From positions 1 through 22,547 of IMG/VR virus record IMGVR_UViG_3300010412_000085: 22,547 nt of DNA, one strand, 5' to 3'. Positions 2,762 to 21,400 of this stretch are shown piece by piece. The notes beneath the pieces are model-generated. The model made no database searches. It saw nothing but the letters and a program-made list of their open reading frames with translations, and was not told the DNA's origin. The DNA comes from a virus. The position numbers and the translations under genes were made by a program. Each line of letters begins with the position of its first letter. Position 1 is the stretch's first letter.

Positions 2762-3075
2762 CGGTTAGCCGCCTTACGCGCCTCCGCCGCAGTCACCCTC
2801 TCGTTTCCACCATGAGCATACTTGTCATCAATGATAGTAGTGAACCGCTGTGCCCACGCGGGAAGCGTGAAGACTTCATAGTCATGGCCGCCATTGGTTA
2901 GACGGATAATGTTTGCACCATCGCTCTCAAAGGTGCCGCCCAGCTTCTTAGTGGAACGGAGGAACCGACAGATCGGGTCCTTAGTGCTGTTGTTAGCGTA
3001 ACCAACAATGGCCTTGTCATCCTTTTCAGCAAGCCAATTGCGGAACTCTTCACGGGTCATCTTGATCTTGGTCAT
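2758..3075 (-). CDS. Hypothetical protein, 105 aa
   Basis: ATG 3075 follows AAGGAG with 7-nt spacing; a longer in-frame start at 3102 has no SD and lies in the upstream gene. Starts MTKIKMTREEFRNWLAEKD (helical), has a central basic stretch (RFLRSTKKLGG), a beta-like segment (DYEVFTLPAWAQRF) and ends with a charged Ala/Arg helix. I do not recognise the family. The composition suits a small cytoplasmic regulator. It is coupled on both sides by overlaps (26 nt with the SLOG gene upstream, TTGA downstream). Confidence 0.65.
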   Translation of the reverse strand: MTKIKMTREEFRNWLAEKDDKAIVGYANNSTKDPICRFLRSTKKLGGTFESDGANIIRLTNGGHDYEVFTLPAWAQRFTTIIDDKYAHGGNERVTAAEARKAANR

Positions 3076-3442
3076 TCGTAGTCTCCTTAAGGTTATACAC
3101 AATCAAAGTCTTCTTCTTCTTCCGAGCATAGTTGATGCCCCACTTAGTACCGGGTGAGTCACCATTCCAAATAGCCAACACTACATCAGCGTTGTCTATG
3201 ATCTGTTTGTTCCGGGTGAAGTAGTGGCGAACTGAGTATCCTGCGCTTGGGTCGAGCAGGAAGTACGGTTTGAAAAGCACGAAGGTGGCCCCAATACTTC
3301 CGGCAAACTCTTCGGCAAACTGATCCACGCCTCTCGCTCCACCCGCGAGCACAACTGTATCGTTGGTGATATTCCTTTTGAGAATATCCCAAACTGTATC
3401 TCTATCAACATCGCGGCTTCCTATAATACCGAGCTTAGTCAT
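3050..3442 (-). CDS. SLOG-fold nucleotide-binding protein (YspA/DUF2493-like)
   Basis: 130 aa. It shows the SLOG landmarks in order: GIIGSRD at residues 5-11, AGGARGVDQFAEEFA at ~33-47, a Pro-containing segment, then RNKQIIDNADVVLAIWNGDSPGT at ~76-98. The Gly-rich loops would bind a nucleotide or nucleotide-derived ligand. SLOG proteins sense or process nucleotides, and some act in phage-host conflict systems as ligand sensors. A role in nucleotide metabolism or signalling is plausible because RNR lies in the same operon. The ATG at 3442 sits inside the end of the 50-aa gene upstream. Confidence 0.82.
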   Translation of the reverse strand: MTKLGIIGSRDVDRDTVWDILKRNITNDTVVLAGGARGVDQFAEEFAGSIGATFVLFKPYFLLDPSAGYSVRHYFTRNKQIIDNADVVLAIWNGDSPGTKWGINYARKKKKTLIVYNLKETTNDQDQDDP

Positions 3443-9719: not shown

Positions 9720-11756
9720 TTACCAATGGTCTTTTATCTCGTGTTCAATAACAAATGGAACGGGAACCTCGATCTTCCAAAGCTCCCAGAGTAATTCAGG
9801 TAGGTGGTTAGACACCACATCTTGAATAAAGTTCACTAAAGTATCGGTGTGACCGTCCGGTGTAGCATACAAAACAGAGTCGTGGACTGCTGCTAGTATA
9901 GCAGTCTTCCACCACACTGAAGCCGGGCCGTTATAGTGCATCATTATGTAGTGGGCGTACCCCAAGAACAGTGGGAAGATGTCGCCAGTTGCGAAGCCCT
10001 GTACTGGGTAGTTCTTCGGTTCGGTTGGCTTAAAGTTTAGGGCAGCCTGCCCCCTTTTCCTAAAGTTCTTAGGCACTTCACTCTCTGTGAAAGTGAAGAT
10101 CCTACCTGTCTCGGTGTGATACTTAGACACTCGTGCGTGCTGACCGGCTACGACTGGGGACTCTGGTGTGACAAGGGCGACAGCTTCAACAGCATCGAGG
10201 ACCTCCCTCTGCCACTCCTTTACACGGGGGTACCGCTTATAGAAAGCAGCTATCAACTTCTTCACTAGCTCAGGATCGGTGCCAGTCTGGTTGCTTATTG
10301 TAACAGGGCCGCCACCATAGATCAACCCAAAGTTCACACCCTTAACGATCCGGCGCTCTCGTTTGTCTACGGTGGTGGGGTCTTTCCACTTGTAGACTTC
10401 TTTCCCTGTTTCGTAGTGGACATCCGCCCCTGATTTGAGGTCTTGAATAAGTCTCTTATCCATAGACAGGATAGCCAGTCCGACGACTTCGAGTTGTTTG
10501 AAGTCGAACTCCACCAGTTTGCTAAAATTGACGGCCTGTACAAACCGCTTCGCAAACGGTGGTATGTTCTGCATGTTGGGGTTCGAGCTTGACGTACGGC
10601 CTGTATTTGTAACCGCGCAGTTGATGGACGGATGTACCCTGCCATCATAGGACGTACTGGCAGCTTCAAGTAAGGGCACGAAATAAGTAGAATCCGCCTT
10701 CTGAATTTTTCTCGTATCACGTACCACCTCTATGTACTCAAGAATCCTAGACTCGTAAGAAGTTGATGCATCCCCTATCGCTTTACAAACCTTGTCTAGC
10801 ATGGAGTCACTAACGTCATAGCAACCAGTTTTCATCTTGGTTGCATCAAAGAACGTTGGACTCAGGTACCCCGCCGGAGTCCATCTCTTCTCAATGTTCT
10901 TAAACTTTTCTTTTCCATTCTTGTATACACCCACCTTCTCACGCTCCGTGTACTTAATGCCCGGAGCACCGAACACGACAGTAGAAATGGTGTGATTAGA
11001 CAGCGGATTGGCATCGCACGAGATCCCCATCTCTTTAAGCAATTCGTGTAGTCTTGCGTGGTTTTTGTTGAGCTGCTGCTCACAGGTGAAGTGGGCAGTC
11101 TTGAGTCCGTTGATGTCTACCTTGAGCCCATTGATCTCTAGCTCAATGTAAGCTTCGAGAGCTGACATCTGCACACCGAACAGGGTAAGCAAGTTCTTAG
11201 ACACTAACAAAGGGAGCTGCTCTTCCCATACATTGAATGTGATATCAAGGTCTTGAAGAAGGTAGTCATGCAAGACATCCTTATCTATCTCACTTGCTTT
11301 GATACCCTGCTTAAACATCTCCTTTACAATATCATTCTTACCTTTCAAAGAATAGATAGAAGCAAGTCTATCAAGACTTGCCATCTTTTCTGTCTGTCCT
11401 GATAGGAGATACTCAGCTACCATTGTATCAAACAACGGAGCATAGTCTCTGATATCAACATCCAGCTTGTTGAAAATGAACTGGGTGTCAAAAGAAATGT
11501 TGTGGCCTACCCAATACCAGTCTCCCCTAGCATAGGGAAAGCAGTCTAGGAAACCTACGAACTCCTCAAGAGTCTCACCCTCAAACACTTCATGTGCTAG
11601 GGTACCATCATCATCAGTCCACTTTACCCCTATCATCACGATACTACAACTGCCGCTGTGAGGATCGGTACCATCTGTCTCAATGTCAAGGACAACAGGC
11701 TGCTTATCCTGATACGATAGGTACCTATTCATGTACCCTTTAAGTTCAGTTTTCAC
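9720..11756 (-). CDS. polA: DNA polymerase, family A, with 3'-5' proofreading domain
   Basis: 678 aa from GTG 11756, overlapping the helicase stop (GTGA), AAGGAG upstream. Exo motifs: DIETDG (D24/E26), GHNISFDTQF (~88-97) and YLLQDLDIT. Polymerase motif A is FDFKQLEVVGLAIL (~416), motif B RRIVKGVNFGLIYGG (~467-481), motif C AAVHDSVLYA (~623). There is no 5'-3' exonuclease domain, as in T7. The residue equivalent to E. coli F762 is Phe. Motif C has Ser where E. coli has Glu (HDS instead of HDE), a variant known in phages. NTGRTSSSNPNMQNIP is the usual substrate-binding block. This is the replicative polymerase of the phage. Confidence 0.97.
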   Translation of the reverse strand: MKTELKGYMNRYLSYQDKQPVVLDIETDGTDPHSGSCSIVMIGVKWTDDDGTLAHEVFEGETLEEFVGFLDCFPYARGDWYWVGHNISFDTQFIFNKLDVDIRDYAPLFDTMVAEYLLSGQTEKMASLDRLASIYSLKGKNDIVKEMFKQGIKASEIDKDVLHDYLLQDLDITFNVWEEQLPLLVSKNLLTLFGVQMSALEAYIELEINGLKVDINGLKTAHFTCEQQLNKNHARLHELLKEMGISCDANPLSNHTISTVVFGAPGIKYTEREKVGVYKNGKEKFKNIEKRWTPAGYLSPTFFDATKMKTGCYDVSDSMLDKVCKAIGDASTSYESRILEYIEVVRDTRKIQKADSTYFVPLLEAASTSYDGRVHPSINCAVTNTGRTSSSNPNMQNIPPFAKRFVQAVNFSKLVEFDFKQLEVVGLAILSMDKRLIQDLKSGADVHYETGKEVYKWKDPTTVDKRERRIVKGVNFGLIYGGGPVTISNQTGTDPELVKKLIAAFYKRYPRVKEWQREVLDAVEAVALVTPESPVVAGQHARVSKYHTETGRIFTFTESEVPKNFRKRGQAALNFKPTEPKNYPVQGFATGDIFPLFLGYAHYIMMHYNGPASVWWKTAILAAVHDSVLYATPDGHTDTLVNFIQDVVSNHLPELLWELWKIEVPVPFVIEHEIKDHW
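10064..10077. repeat. 14-bp pseudo-palindrome, site 9
   Basis: Reads AGTTCTTAGGCACT (reverse AGTGCCTAAGAACT) inside polA (reverse strand encodes VPKNF). Confidence 0.65.
11192..11205. repeat. 14-bp pseudo-palindrome, site 10
   Basis: Reads AGTTCTTAGACACT (reverse AGTGTCTAAGAACT, identical to site 7) inside polA (reverse strand encodes VSKNL). Confidence 0.6.
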
Positions 11757-13003
11757 GACGCCGCTCCTTTGGGGTAGGCAATAGAGTAGAACCTACCCAC
11801 ATCACCATCGAAACCAACTGTTAACCTACCGTGCCTCAGCCCCTTGATACAACGAGGACCACCGGGTGTCTTGTTCTTAGCGATAGAAATGTACCGCTCG
11901 TCATCTACTGTATGATCCTTGCCTATCATAAGGAGTACATCAGCCTCGCCTTGCATACCAGTCTTGCTACCATAGAGCTGGCTCTGGTCTAGCCACATCT
12001 GTCCCTCCGCCGAAGCGTCAGCCTGAGCGACAGCCATGACCACGCCATGCTTGTCGGCGGTTCCTCTCGCCCATTGTGACAGAGCCCGTAACCGCTCGAC
12101 ACCTTCGAGTTTGTTGAAGCCCCGTATCTTATCCAAGACGTTGAACGCAATGAGCCCATAGTCACCGGATCTGAGAACCCGTTCCACATCCTTCGTGGAT
12201 AGACCCGTGTCATGGTACACTTCGATGTCGTGAGTTCCTAAGAACTCTTTGTACTCTTTCTCGAACTTGGCTGGGTCACTTGCGAGATCCCAGACTGTAA
12301 CTCCGAGAGCGGACTGTATAAGTCGGACGGCAACTCTATCTCCTCCCTCCTCGTTGTTGAATATGATAGCCCTCTTCCCATCCGGTAACTGTCCAACCAT
12401 ATGTGTGAACTCTGACGTAACAAAGGTAGTACCTCCTACTTCTGGTCGTTTACCCACGATGATGAGATCACCTTTCCGAACCGGGCCGACACTACGGTTG
12501 AGGTCTTCCAGCCTCCACTCGTATCCCCCCGAGGTAACGACGCTGGTAATGAGATCGGTGAGAGATCTACGAACGAAAGCACTACTGGCACCCAGCCTAG
12601 ACTGCGTGACAGTACCGGCCTCAACTGCTGCTTCAAGCGCATCCCAGTCAGCCTTTCCATCCTTAACTTCTTGTGCTTTACTGATAACTTCATCGGCAAA
12701 CCTCAGCGCAAGAAAGCGCGTGGCAATCGACTCATCTTTCTCCATACTCTCTGCCTGAGAGCAGATCCTTTCAAACACCTCAACTTGCTCAGTTTTCCAA
12801 GTAGGGTGGAGAGAGATCCTTGACCACACGATGAAGGGCTGCCACCTAATCGCATCTTCTTCCGGGTGAGCATCGAACCACTCTCCCATATCCTTAATGA
12901 TCTGCCTTGTCTCGGCCAGCACAGACTGGCCCTTGACATAGGGTGCGTACTTGTTGTACTGATCCCTATCTTCAAGTACCTTAAGTAGCTGGCTGTCAAT
13001 CAC
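11753..13003 (-). CDS. DnaB-like replicative helicase (RecA-fold), with altered Walker motifs
   Basis: 416 aa, GTG 13003 overlapping the upstream stop. The first ~160 residues are a helical N-terminal domain; the RecA-like core follows. The P-loop region reads VGKRPEVGGTTF at ~184-195; DnaB relatives normally have GxRPxxGKT, so the key Lys is Gly here. The Walker B strand reads LIAFNVLDKI (~283-292), with Asn where an Asp is usual. NNEEGGDRVAVRLIQ, QADASAEGQMWLDQSQLYGSKTGMQGEADVLLMIG and the final beta segments match the phage DnaB family well. It should unwind DNA at the fork with the primase encoded two genes upstream. The motif changes leave ATPase activity uncertain. Confidence 0.87.
   Translation of the reverse strand: MIDSQLLKVLEDRDQYNKYAPYVKGQSVLAETRQIIKDMGEWFDAHPEEDAIRWQPFIVWSRISLHPTWKTEQVEVFERICSQAESMEKDESIATRFLALRFADEVISKAQEVKDGKADWDALEAAVEAGTVTQSRLGASSAFVRRSLTDLITSVVTSGGYEWRLEDLNRSVGPVRKGDLIIVGKRPEVGGTTFVTSEFTHMVGQLPDGKRAIIFNNEEGGDRVAVRLIQSALGVTVWDLASDPAKFEKEYKEFLGTHDIEVYHDTGLSTKDVERVLRSGDYGLIAFNVLDKIRGFNKLEGVERLRALSQWARGTADKHGVVMAVAQADASAEGQMWLDQSQLYGSKTGMQGEADVLLMIGKDHTVDDERYISIAKNKTPGGPRCIKGLRHGRLTVGFDGDVGRFYSIAYPKGAAS
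12233..12246. repeat. 14-bp pseudo-palindrome, site 11
   Basis: Reads AGTTCCTAAGAACT inside the helicase gene (reverse strand encodes EFLGT). Confidence 0.8.
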
Positions 13004-19097: not shown

Positions 19098-19519
19098 CTT
19101 CTACCTCCTCTAAATAGTACGCTGAAGCTCGTTCTAACCTAGGGATACACGCGCTTGTCCTCTGATGTCACTTAATATCCTGCCCTCACTACTGTGTTCA
19201 GCCACCGGCTTCACTTAGAGGTCAGACCTCTATCCACCAGCACCTAGTATAGCTAAGAAGCTAAGGATCATACTGGAAGGCAACGATCACAAGTTGAGAC
19301 TACTATCCAGCGTACTATATGGAGGAGGCGAAGCATTACGCATCGCCTCAATGTATGCCACAGTGCTTGCTATTCTTGTTCTTTGTGGTAGTACCTGAGT
19401 GTCGTTATCACACTCAAGTACCCTGACTGCCTATGTTCCCTACAGTCTCGGGTCTCGGGCTAACGCCGGGTTAAGCCGGTCAATTGTACAGCGTCCCACC
19501 AAGTTACTCGATGAGCCTG

Positions 19520-19656: not shown

Positions 19657-19819
19657 GCAGCGAGGCAGCCCTCACACAAAGTGAACTTTGCCCACCGTTC
19701 CGGTGAGGATAGCGGCGTTTCGCCCTTTAGTCAACCCACCTTAGTGGGCTGACCAAAGGACGCTCCCCGAAGGGAGCGCCTTTGGAGCCGAAGGCTACGA
19801 GACCTTTACGGTCTCGTAG
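19642..19819. repeat. Seven consecutive short hairpins
   Basis: Back to back: GCCTCGC/GCGAGGC (19642-19666), CAAAG/CTTTG (19677-19690), CACCG/CGGTG (19693-19705), GGCG/CGCC (19714-19724), GTCA+CCCAC/GTGGG+TGAC (19730-19753), CCAAAGG+CGCTCCC/GGGAGCG+CCTTTGG (19753-19785, one bulged A) and CTACGAGACC/GGTCTCGTAG (19795-19819). The 19753 hairpin has a C(UUCG)G loop on the minus strand. None is followed by a clear U run, so standard terminator function is unproven. The last overlaps the stop codon of the 134-aa gene. Confidence 0.8.
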
Positions 19820-20199
19820 GTGGACCACACCACCTTGCCCAACACGATGTCGGGATTCTGACCACGCCGCTTTGCGGCGTCCCGAGTCAGCTCGCTCCAC
19901 ACCATGAGCTTGCGGGAGTGGGGCTTCCGACACACCATGTAGTGGTGGCCCTTCTCCTTGAGAAGGCGGCTGGCGACCTCCTTCTTGCCCTCGAAGTACC
20001 GGAGGTACTTCGGATCAGCCTCCACCTTCGGTGGCAGGGTGGCCGACTGGCTGGCCCGGCTCGGCTCCGCCGAGGACTGGCGGTTCGCCACGAGTGCCGC
20101 AGCGATAGCGGAAGTGACCAGCTCGGAGAGCTGGTCGGGGGTCAGCGTCACGAAGGCAGCCTTCGGCTGATCGGCGGTCGTGGAATTTTTGCGGGGCAT
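19795..20199 (-). CDS. Basic hypothetical protein, 134 aa, beside the putative origin
   Basis: ATG 20199 with AAAGGAG 6-7 nt upstream. Residues 1-20 are basic and polar; ~18-40 form a helix (LTPDQLSELVTSAIAAALVA). A Ser/Pro/Ala linker follows to ~60. The C-terminal half is basic and mixed alpha/beta (YLRYFEGKKEVASRLLKEKG, HHYMVCRKPHSRKLMVWSEL, TRDAAKRRG, IVLGKVVWSTYETVKV). I do not recognise it. Being alone between two structured non-coding blocks and next to iterons, it might bind DNA there. Its SD is buried in an 18-bp stem. Confidence 0.7.
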   Translation of the reverse strand: MPRKNSTTADQPKAAFVTLTPDQLSELVTSAIAAALVANRQSSAEPSRASQSATLPPKVEADPKYLRYFEGKKEVASRLLKEKGHHYMVCRKPHSRKLMVWSELTRDAAKRRGQNPDIVLGKVVWSTYETVKVS

Positions 20200-20205
20200 T
20201 GCGCT

Positions 20206-20297
20206 CTCCTTTCCGAATTGGGTTTTAGGGAGGGAGACCTTCTCCCTCCTCGCTTCGCTACGGAGGGAGAAGTCTCCCGACCCAATTCGGAAAGGAG
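20206..20297. repeat. Long inverted repeat / hairpin covering the RBS of the 134-aa gene
   Basis: CTCCTTTCCGAATTGGGT (20206-20223) is perfectly repeated in inverted form at 20280-20297. Inside is a second stem, GGGAGA + CTTCTCCCTCC paired with GGAGGGAGAAG + TCTCCC, with one bulge, leaving a loop of about 12 nt. In minus-strand RNA the SD AAAGGAG is in the 3' arm of the outer stem and would be sequestered. Confidence 0.9.
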
Positions 20298-20299
20298 GG

Positions 20300-20528
20300 C
20301 AAGTACCCCTTTGGGGTACTTGGGGCCAACTCGCCTCACGCAAACCACGCGATCACGCGGCTGGCGGATGCGTTAATCTTGACCAGCTTCGCTGGTTCAA
20401 GATTCGTACCAACGCTATGTCAAATCAGGGTCGATATCAGTCCCCTTACAGGGGACGATATCGGGGCCGCTACTCGTACACACACGGCTCGCACCCGAGG
20501 CCGATTCACGAATTCAACTTCGTGTGAA
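20300..20528. repeat. Four further stem-loops next to the iterons
   Basis: CAAGTACCCC-TTT-GGGGTACTTG (20300-20322, 10 bp perfect); AATCTTGA+CCAGC/GCTGG+TCAAGATT (20375-20404, one bulged T); CGATATC+GTCCCC/GGGGAC+GATATCG (20432-20463, one bulged A); CACGAA/TTCGTG within 20503-20528. No coding frame is supported here. Confidence 0.8.
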
Positions 20529-20619
20529 TAAGTTGTGGAAAAACTGTGAGTTACCTGTGGATAACCTGTTAGTATCCTGTTGAGATCCTGTATATAACCG
20601 TGGAACATCCCGTGGAACA
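20521..20619. repeat. Array of nine 11-bp iterons with DnaA-box matches (putative origin)
   Basis: Units starting every 11 bp: CGTGTGAATAA, GTTGTGGAAAA, ACTGTGAGTTA, CCTGTGGATAA, CCTGTTAGTAT, CCTGTTGAGAT, CCTGTATATAA, CCGTGGAACAT, CCCGTGGAACA. TGTGAATAA (20523-20531) and TGTGGATAA (20556-20564) match the DnaA box TTATNCACA on the other strand. The 11-bp period is about one helical turn, so bound proteins would line up on one face. It lies at the divergence of leftward and rightward genes. Confidence 0.8.
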
Positions 20620-20673
20620 TACATTATGTCAAAGGGGAGGCAGGGGGGTACACCCCTCGCTCCGCTCGGGGAA

Positions 20674-20760
20674 TCACACTTGAAATTTTCTCATAGAAAT
20701 GTTACTATATAAGAATAAGAATATAAGACCCTACTATCCTCAATTAACCATCCCCCATAT
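20674..20760. other. AT-rich stretch, possible DNA unwinding element
   Basis: About 55 bp downstream of the iterons the sequence becomes strongly A+T rich (runs such as GAAATTTTCTCATAGAAATG and TATATAAGAATAAGAATATA). Iterons followed by AT-rich DNA is the classical origin layout. It also contains a candidate promoter. Confidence 0.5.
20680..20708 (+). promoter_or_regulatory. Candidate sigma70-type rightward promoter
   Basis: TTGAAA (20680-20685), 17-bp spacer, TACTAT (20703-20708): 5/6 and 4/6 matches to consensus with optimal spacing. It points towards the terminase-like gene, with a leader of about 200 nt. An alternative -10 (TATAAG at 20708) has worse spacing. Confidence 0.45.
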
Positions 20761-20917
20761 ATGATATGGTCCCCCTTCCTGATAAGTTCCTTCCTTCCCA
20801 CCCACCCGCCGCACAGTCCTACCTCGTATTGAACTTTTTCCTATATCAACTGTCTAAGTATCCCATATGACCAATGCCTCCTCTCCTCTCCATCCTCGCG
20901 CCGCGTTTAAGGACACA

Positions 20918-21400
20918 ATGGGCCGCTTGCGGACCCAATCTCTCTTTGTAGAGAAGAAAGACCCCAATTACCCTGCTTACTTCACAGTAAGGGAGGAAGA
21001 CTTTAAGGACGGAGACGGAAATGAGTATGTCAGCTTACGACGCCTATATGTCGAGTCTCAGGACCCAACGGAGTACCGATTTGCCCAACGGGCCTTCGGC
21101 TCTTGGAGGCACTGGCTACGCATTAGGAGTATGGCTTGGTTACAACCCCACCTTACGGAATGGCGTGAGGAGTTGGATGCGAGACTTAGGAGCCTTGGCT
21201 CCCAATGGCTGCAAGAAGCTCTTGATGGAACGTCTCAAGTATCCGTACCAGCGGCGAAGTACTTTGCGAATGGAGAGTACTGGGATAAACCCAAGAAGCG
21301 TGGTAGACCCTCTAAAGAGGAAATTGAGGGGACAAGAAAGCGGCTTGCTAAACAGGAAGCCGAACTAGACGAGGATTTCGAGAGAACACTAGGAGTATAA
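20918..21400 (+). CDS. Probable terminase small subunit
   Basis: 160 aa from ATG 20918, which has AAGGA 5 nt upstream and begins MGRLRTQSLFVEKKDPNYP. A longer start at ATG 20867 has no SD. The segment RRLYVESQDPTEYRFAQRAFGSWRHW and the helices around EWREELDARLRSLGSQWL resemble small terminase subunits of marine podo-/siphoviruses. AAKYFANGEYWDKPKKRGRPSKEEI is the Lys/Arg-GRPSKEE motif common near their C-terminus; the end is acidic. Small terminase recognises packaging sites on phage DNA and recruits the large subunit. It opens the rightward virion block, in keeping with that role. Confidence 0.68.
   Translation: MGRLRTQSLFVEKKDPNYPAYFTVREEDFKDGDGNEYVSLRRLYVESQDPTEYRFAQRAFGSWRHWLRIRSMAWLQPHLTEWREELDARLRSLGSQWLQEALDGTSQVSVPAAKYFANGEYWDKPKKRGRPSKEEIEGTRKRLAKQEAELDEDFERTLGV

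Follow-up and report, generated by a model that had tools for sequence, protein, structure and literature searches.

A phased array of DnaA-box-like sequences beside the predicted genome end of a Zobellviridae-like podophage

The window analysed here, a 22,547-bp virus record taken over its whole length, is a fragment of a Zobellviridae-like podophage which carries an array of DnaA-box-like sequences between its early and late gene arms. We consider there to be an even chance that this array is a platform to which host DnaA docks, placed in or across a predicted direct terminal repeat (DTR). The phased box units and the terminus element that adjoins them were observed directly, as was the recurrence of that element where the annotated DTRs of ICBM1 and ICBM2 end. 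A previous sequence-only reading had proposed a defined replication origin at this site, a claim which our results do not support, as the divergence point is where cobavirus ends lie and the adjoining tract is general in relatives without DnaA boxes.

Assignment to the Zobellviridae is based on the gene content and layout of the fragment, with capsid and terminase genes lying outside it: a two-arm genome, in which the early arm holds CobS/CobT, primase, helicase and PolA, and the late arm starts with a PHROG 8035 gene. The early arm, on the minus strand, encodes ribonucleotide reductase, exonuclease, PolA, a DnaB-like helicase, primase, CobT and CobS, the latter two being shared with ICP2. Primase and helicase are encoded by two separate genes rather than by a single gp4-like protein. 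The arms diverge at ~ 20.2–20.9 kb, after which the PHROG 8035 gene follows on the plus strand (Table 1); in ICP2, CW02, Pecta, GP100 and other phages, a gene of this family lies upstream of that for the large terminase. A small protein (3050–3442, minus strand) encoded at the far end of the early arm shows weak SLOG/DprA-like similarity, below Pfam cut-offs. Megablast against the phage collection found no relative of the window, and IMG/VR searches using either the PHROG 8035 protein or the helicase by itself, or the first early gene, returned a single relative, the near-identical contig L009, which ends at window position 19238, before reaching the array.

Table 1 Features of the window, with strand and basis where given
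Feature	Position	Strand	Basis
DNA polymerase A, early arm	9720..11756	-	
DnaB-like replicative helicase, early arm	11753..13003	-	
First early-arm gene, no known family	19795..20199	-	
Hairpin-rich stretch between array and first early gene	20203..20520	-	z = -10.4 vs shuffles
Predicted DTR, longest estimate 172 bp (as ICBM1)	20503..20674		length borrowed from relatives
Seven DnaA-box-like 9-mers (TGTGNATAA and variants), exact 11-bp register	20523..20598	+	
Two CCGTGGAACAT copies, 12 bp apart, outside 11-bp register	20598-20608, 20610-20620	+	
Zobellviridae terminus element: G-run, hairpin, AAATTTTCTCATAGAAAT box	20625..20702	+	nhmmer E 1.5e-8
AT-rich, least stable 100 bp of window; contains least stable 60 bp	20671..20770		
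Predicted genome end (DTR edge), +/- few bp	20674..20675		ICBM1/ICBM2 offset from CTNANAG box; similar RIO-1/VpV262 flank
Sigma70-like extended -10 promoter match (TTGAAA-17-TACTAT), facing late arm	20680..20708	+	count not above chance
First late gene, PHROG 8035, candidate small terminase	20867..21400	+	position upstream of large terminase in relatives

The units of the array, each a 9-mer plus 2 bp, start at 20523, 20534, 20545, 20556, 20567, 20578 and 20589. Nine units recurring every 11 bp (20521–20619) had been described from the letters; seven of these hold the exact register from 20523, and the last two fall outside it. Exact TTATNCACA is present on the minus strand in two units, at 20523–20531 (TTATTCACA) and 20556–20564 (TTATCCACA), and two further units (20534 and 20589) are one mismatch from TTATNCACA. 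The number of DnaA boxes per se shows no enrichment in the window (14 matches, with 15.5 expected). It is the phased arrangement and not the box count that lifts the array above chance. The best seven-unit score at period 11 was 52/63, compared with 31–34 at other periods and with a mean of 34.1 (sd 1.2, maximum 38) in 300 dinucleotide shuffles, for which the maximum over periods 9–13 was taken. Lag-11 self-identity reached 0.62 in the array and no more than 0.46 elsewhere in the window. This is a genuine DnaA-box-like array, with the features of the bacterial type, i.e., TTATNCACA-like 9-mers in the same orientation, 2-bp gaps and a score above chance. Three boxes at a spacing of 11 or 12 gave at least 120 matches each in IMG/VR, against 7 contigs at a spacing of 10, and four boxes at spacing 11 occurred in 51 stretches across 257 Gb of prokaryote genomes, several from Aquificota-type thermophiles. 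DnaA-box arrays with an 11-bp spacing were also seen in small phages of 4.7–5.6 kb (bajarodmic virus 162, 309 and 1126, and Gokushovirus WZ-2015a).

Host DnaA is the likely ligand of the array, since ATP-DnaA is published to bind best to 9-mers followed by 2 bp and no phage initiator was recognised in the early arm. In E. coli, low-affinity arrays are composed of 9-mers with a 2-bp gap (PMC6727663), and in T. maritima a 2-bp gap between 9-mers is optimal for the head-to-tail pairing of ATP-DnaA (PMC10316083). The same gaps in the window lend support to the earlier suggestion that the degenerate boxes may be phased for cooperative loading of host DnaA. A phage initiator had been offered as the alternative ligand; none was recognised among the window proteins searched, several early proteins of which match no family.

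Immediately beyond the array lies a non-coding element shared with relatives, which was recognised by a shared-word search and by reading loci L134, L139 and L143, and which consists of a G-run, a hairpin and then AAATTTTCTCANAGAAAT. An 85-bp terminus profile, built from 20 relatives with the window left out, has a single match in the window and also matches ICP2, Pecta, CW02 and Manatee Spring phage, with no match in shuffles or in either of the two T7-like phages tested. The element was found at 65 loci, 51 of them distinct (e.g., L008, L131, L134, L143, L150, L178, L200 and ICP2 26487–26559). The profile gave no score at the RIO-1 and VpV262 termini, where the likeness was seen by eye at the annotated DTR edge. 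The element offers a simple locator of genome ends in many Zobellviridae, including metagenomic ones.

The DTRs of ICBM1 and ICBM2 (172 and 159 bp) have been determined from PacBio reads (PMC6775973), and in both phages the DTR edge falls 15 nt before the CTNANAG box, within the terminus element. The edge sequences are alike, namely TAGCACCTCTAACATTTCT in RIO-1 and CACACCTCGAATATTTCT in VpV262 (annotated terminal repeats) compared with CACACTTGAAATTTTCT in the window; the two repeat annotations in the VpV262 record differ in letters at the coordinates that it gives. Relative to the predicted genome end, DTR lengths of 159, 138 and 121 bp would start at 20516, 20537 and 20554, respectively. Because the family terminus element adjoins the array, the array is predicted to lie wholly or mostly within a DTR of 121–172 bp, which would enclose 68% to 100% of it. 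Given that the ICBM-type offset predicts an end at 20674/20675, the two genome ends most likely join at the point of early/late divergence, which the assembly represents by one collapsed copy; the window is a fragment without most of the late arm, and a second DTR copy falls outside what it can show. The strand-divergence point named in the sequence-only reading would be this joint.

The adjoining AT-rich tract that had been described is real, forming the least stable 100 bp of the window, with 80% AT at 20680–20719, and is separated from the array by a G+C-rich hairpin. An easily unwound tract next to the boxes would be expected of an origin, yet it is also present in relatives without DnaA boxes. 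In 15 relatives, most of them lacking DnaA boxes, the 300 bp on the corresponding side of the terminus likewise contained a stretch whose instability placed it in the top 0.6% of its locus. Since relatives without DnaA boxes share this weak stretch, the tract is a family feature of the joint, with or without the boxes, and is partly the terminus box itself. On the early side of the array, the minus strand of the hairpin-rich stretch folds into several long hairpins, the last stem of which contains the likely ribosome-binding site of the first early gene; strong folding (z down to -8.6) was also seen in the intergenic region of MEP401. The Rfam search gave a chance match only.

The array itself is not shared by related phages. 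Allowing one mismatch per box, not so much as a pair of boxes 11 bp apart was present in any of 50 relatives, ten isolates included, so that the conservation check put forward with the sequence-only reading was negative in 50/50 relatives searched. The array was likewise not found in the isolates ICP2, MEP401, ICBM2 and Manatee Spring phage; a period-12 signal in the last of these was rejected as an AT-only repeat. DnaA boxes were not clearly enriched at Zobellviridae termini (6/51 compared with 15/255 control segments). Seven relatives (L139, L141, L150, L156, L162, L164 and L165) have Fur-box-like clusters instead, each with 4 to 9 matches to the Fur palindrome, scoring 14/19 or better, no more than 500 bp from the terminus and upstream of the PHROG 8035 gene, e.g., L139 7149–7600 and L150 5478–5760. 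These matches, of up to 17/19, are nearly all of those in each locus, where ~ 0.3–1.2 would be expected in shuffles, and the seven phages, being mutually related, represent few independent cases. No paper was found in the literature on Fur-box-like clusters at these phage termini. The terminus site seems to accept binding sites of different host proteins, which favours a general function in docking and argues against a fixed origin that depends on DnaA. Other arrangements were observed at two loci. A different 11-bp-phased repeat (CACTGATATAT / TCACTG) occupies the same place in L134 (230–400), which encodes the closest PHROG 8035 protein, and in L040 (1060–1330) two DnaA-box arrays flank Fur-box-like sites within a single intergenic region, located upstream of genes for primase/helicase and polymerase.

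DnaA-box arrays also occur at the genome ends of other phages. They lie inside the 177-bp DTR of A7 (Berlinvirus) and the 195-bp DTR of phiEap-1 (Eapunavirus), at both ends, as well as in the annotated terminal repeats of the T5-like phage Shivani and of Siara, and in an end repeat annotated in bux, also T5-like. The literature has discussed DnaA boxes at the injection-stop region of T5-like DTRs, with a proposed role at the genome end and not as an origin (PMC13250531). Of 39 arrays on viral contigs 20 kb or longer, 9 were within 500 bp of a contig end compared with 1.1 expected, an enrichment possibly inflated by assembly breaks at repeats, and in one viral contig a 221-bp end repeat contains the array in each of its two copies. 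Runs of five G or C were present within 150 bp of 53 of the 120 arrays among the matches listed, compared with 19% of random windows. Since a PHROG 8035 profile matched none of 50 array-bearing contigs, their arrays probably belong to other phages. One contig (L116) has a primase/helicase/polymerase set similar to that of the window; a shared odd unit, TGTTAGTAT/A, was seen near the arrays of L015 and L116 only, too few to interpret. Tentatively, and with less confidence than we place in the docking of DnaA in this one phage, unrelated lytic phages may have convergently placed arrays of host-protein sites (DnaA, in T7-like and T5-like phages too; Fur-like in some Zobellviridae) within their terminal repeats or next to them, and the host protein bound there would serve end functions such as staging entry, protecting ends or acting at the concatemer joint.

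The strongest alternative is that the AT-rich tract opens and that the joint has origin activity, which is possible but which we judge unlikely. On DNA in circular or concatemeric form, a host DnaA filament would open 20671–20770 for loading of the helicase, primase and polymerase of the phage. The DnaA-type phasing, the coincidence of the tract with the least stable 60 and 100 bp of the window and the lack of a recognised phage initiator are all consistent with this, as is a cumulative GC-skew minimum at ~ 20–21 kb, though the latter coincides with the gene-strand change. However, the tract lies beyond the predicted genome end and on linear DNA would adjoin only the late-end copy of the array, the joint has the same weak tract in relatives without DnaA boxes, and no relative searched has the array (0/50). 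The geometry is also reversed: in E. coli the unwinding element is on the 5′ side of R1, whereas in the window the tract, whose origin role is putative, is on the 3′ side of TGTGGATAA. T. maritima tolerates other box orientations (PMC10316083).

Other explanations depend on different ligands or tasks. Repeats for packaging or concatemer processing, like the short repeats near T7 ends, would suit an array that falls within the predicted terminal repeat or adjoins it, and find a parallel in the arrays within the DTRs of A7 and phiEap-1, with the DnaA-box likeness being incidental or secondary; this is improbable, given that exact TTATCCACA and TTATTCACA with 2-bp gaps are specific to DnaA and that box arrays in viral contigs are commoner at spacings 11 and 12 (at least 120 matches each) than at 10 (7). 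We give similarly little credence to a decoy or transcription control, in which host initiation is slowed because the array titrates DnaA, or DnaA regulates the flanking early and late promoters. Its location between divergent arms, beside a promoter-like match and at the same place as the Fur-box-like clusters of related phages, would fit regulation, but there are few boxes per genome copy for titration and the promoter match is not above chance. Iterons of a phage-encoded initiator are the least probable, and very much so: degenerate direct repeats beside the early arm could be read in this way, yet the best units are canonical host DnaA boxes and no initiator was recognised in the proteins searched, even allowing for the several early proteins that match no family.

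We therefore favour the docking of host DnaA, and regard an end or joint function, rather than that of main replication origin, as most likely. If the array is inside the DTR, the linear genome would have an array at each end, and there would be one at every joint of a concatemer or circle. Host DnaA-ATP would nucleate on the two exact boxes and then spread as a head-to-tail filament over the weak boxes at 2-bp gaps, and the array would serve to hold, protect or stage the genome end, whether incoming or concatemeric. Counting against this are the DTR length, which is borrowed from relatives, the 68% of the array enclosed by the shortest known DTR, the lack of conservation and the opposite orientation in A7 and phiEap-1. 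DnaA boxes in phages are usually interpreted as origins; if such arrays tend to lie in terminal repeats, phage origin calls of the Ori-Finder type (e.g., PMC11512268) would need rechecking, and a regulator of host replication would act at the ends of phage genomes in a role so far unexplored.

Compared with known systems, the window shares the terminus element and two-arm layout with the cobavirus/Zobellviridae termini of ICBM1, ICBM2, RIO-1 and VpV262, but no DnaA-box array was found in the termini of these phages that were scanned (RIO-1 and VpV262 by eye). With the DnaA-oligomerising regions of E. coli and T. maritima oriC it shares strong and weak 9-mer boxes placed 2 bp apart (PMC6727663, PMC10316083), the homology being limited to the boxes, whereas the window array is phage DNA at a predicted genome end. 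The T7-like phages A7 and phiEap-1 have DnaA boxes within their DTRs at spacings of 11, 12 and 21–22 bp, and P483 has a 90%-identical copy of such an array; these three belong to a different family and their spacing is mixed, and in A7 and phiEap-1 the array is oriented to the genome end in the opposite way to that of the window. In T5-like phages the DTR is ~ 10 kb and contains genes, compared with the 121–172 bp predicted for this podophage, and two-step transfer is a T5-like trait, but they too carry DnaA boxes in a terminal repeat, as seen in the Shivani DTR and the annotated repeat of bux.
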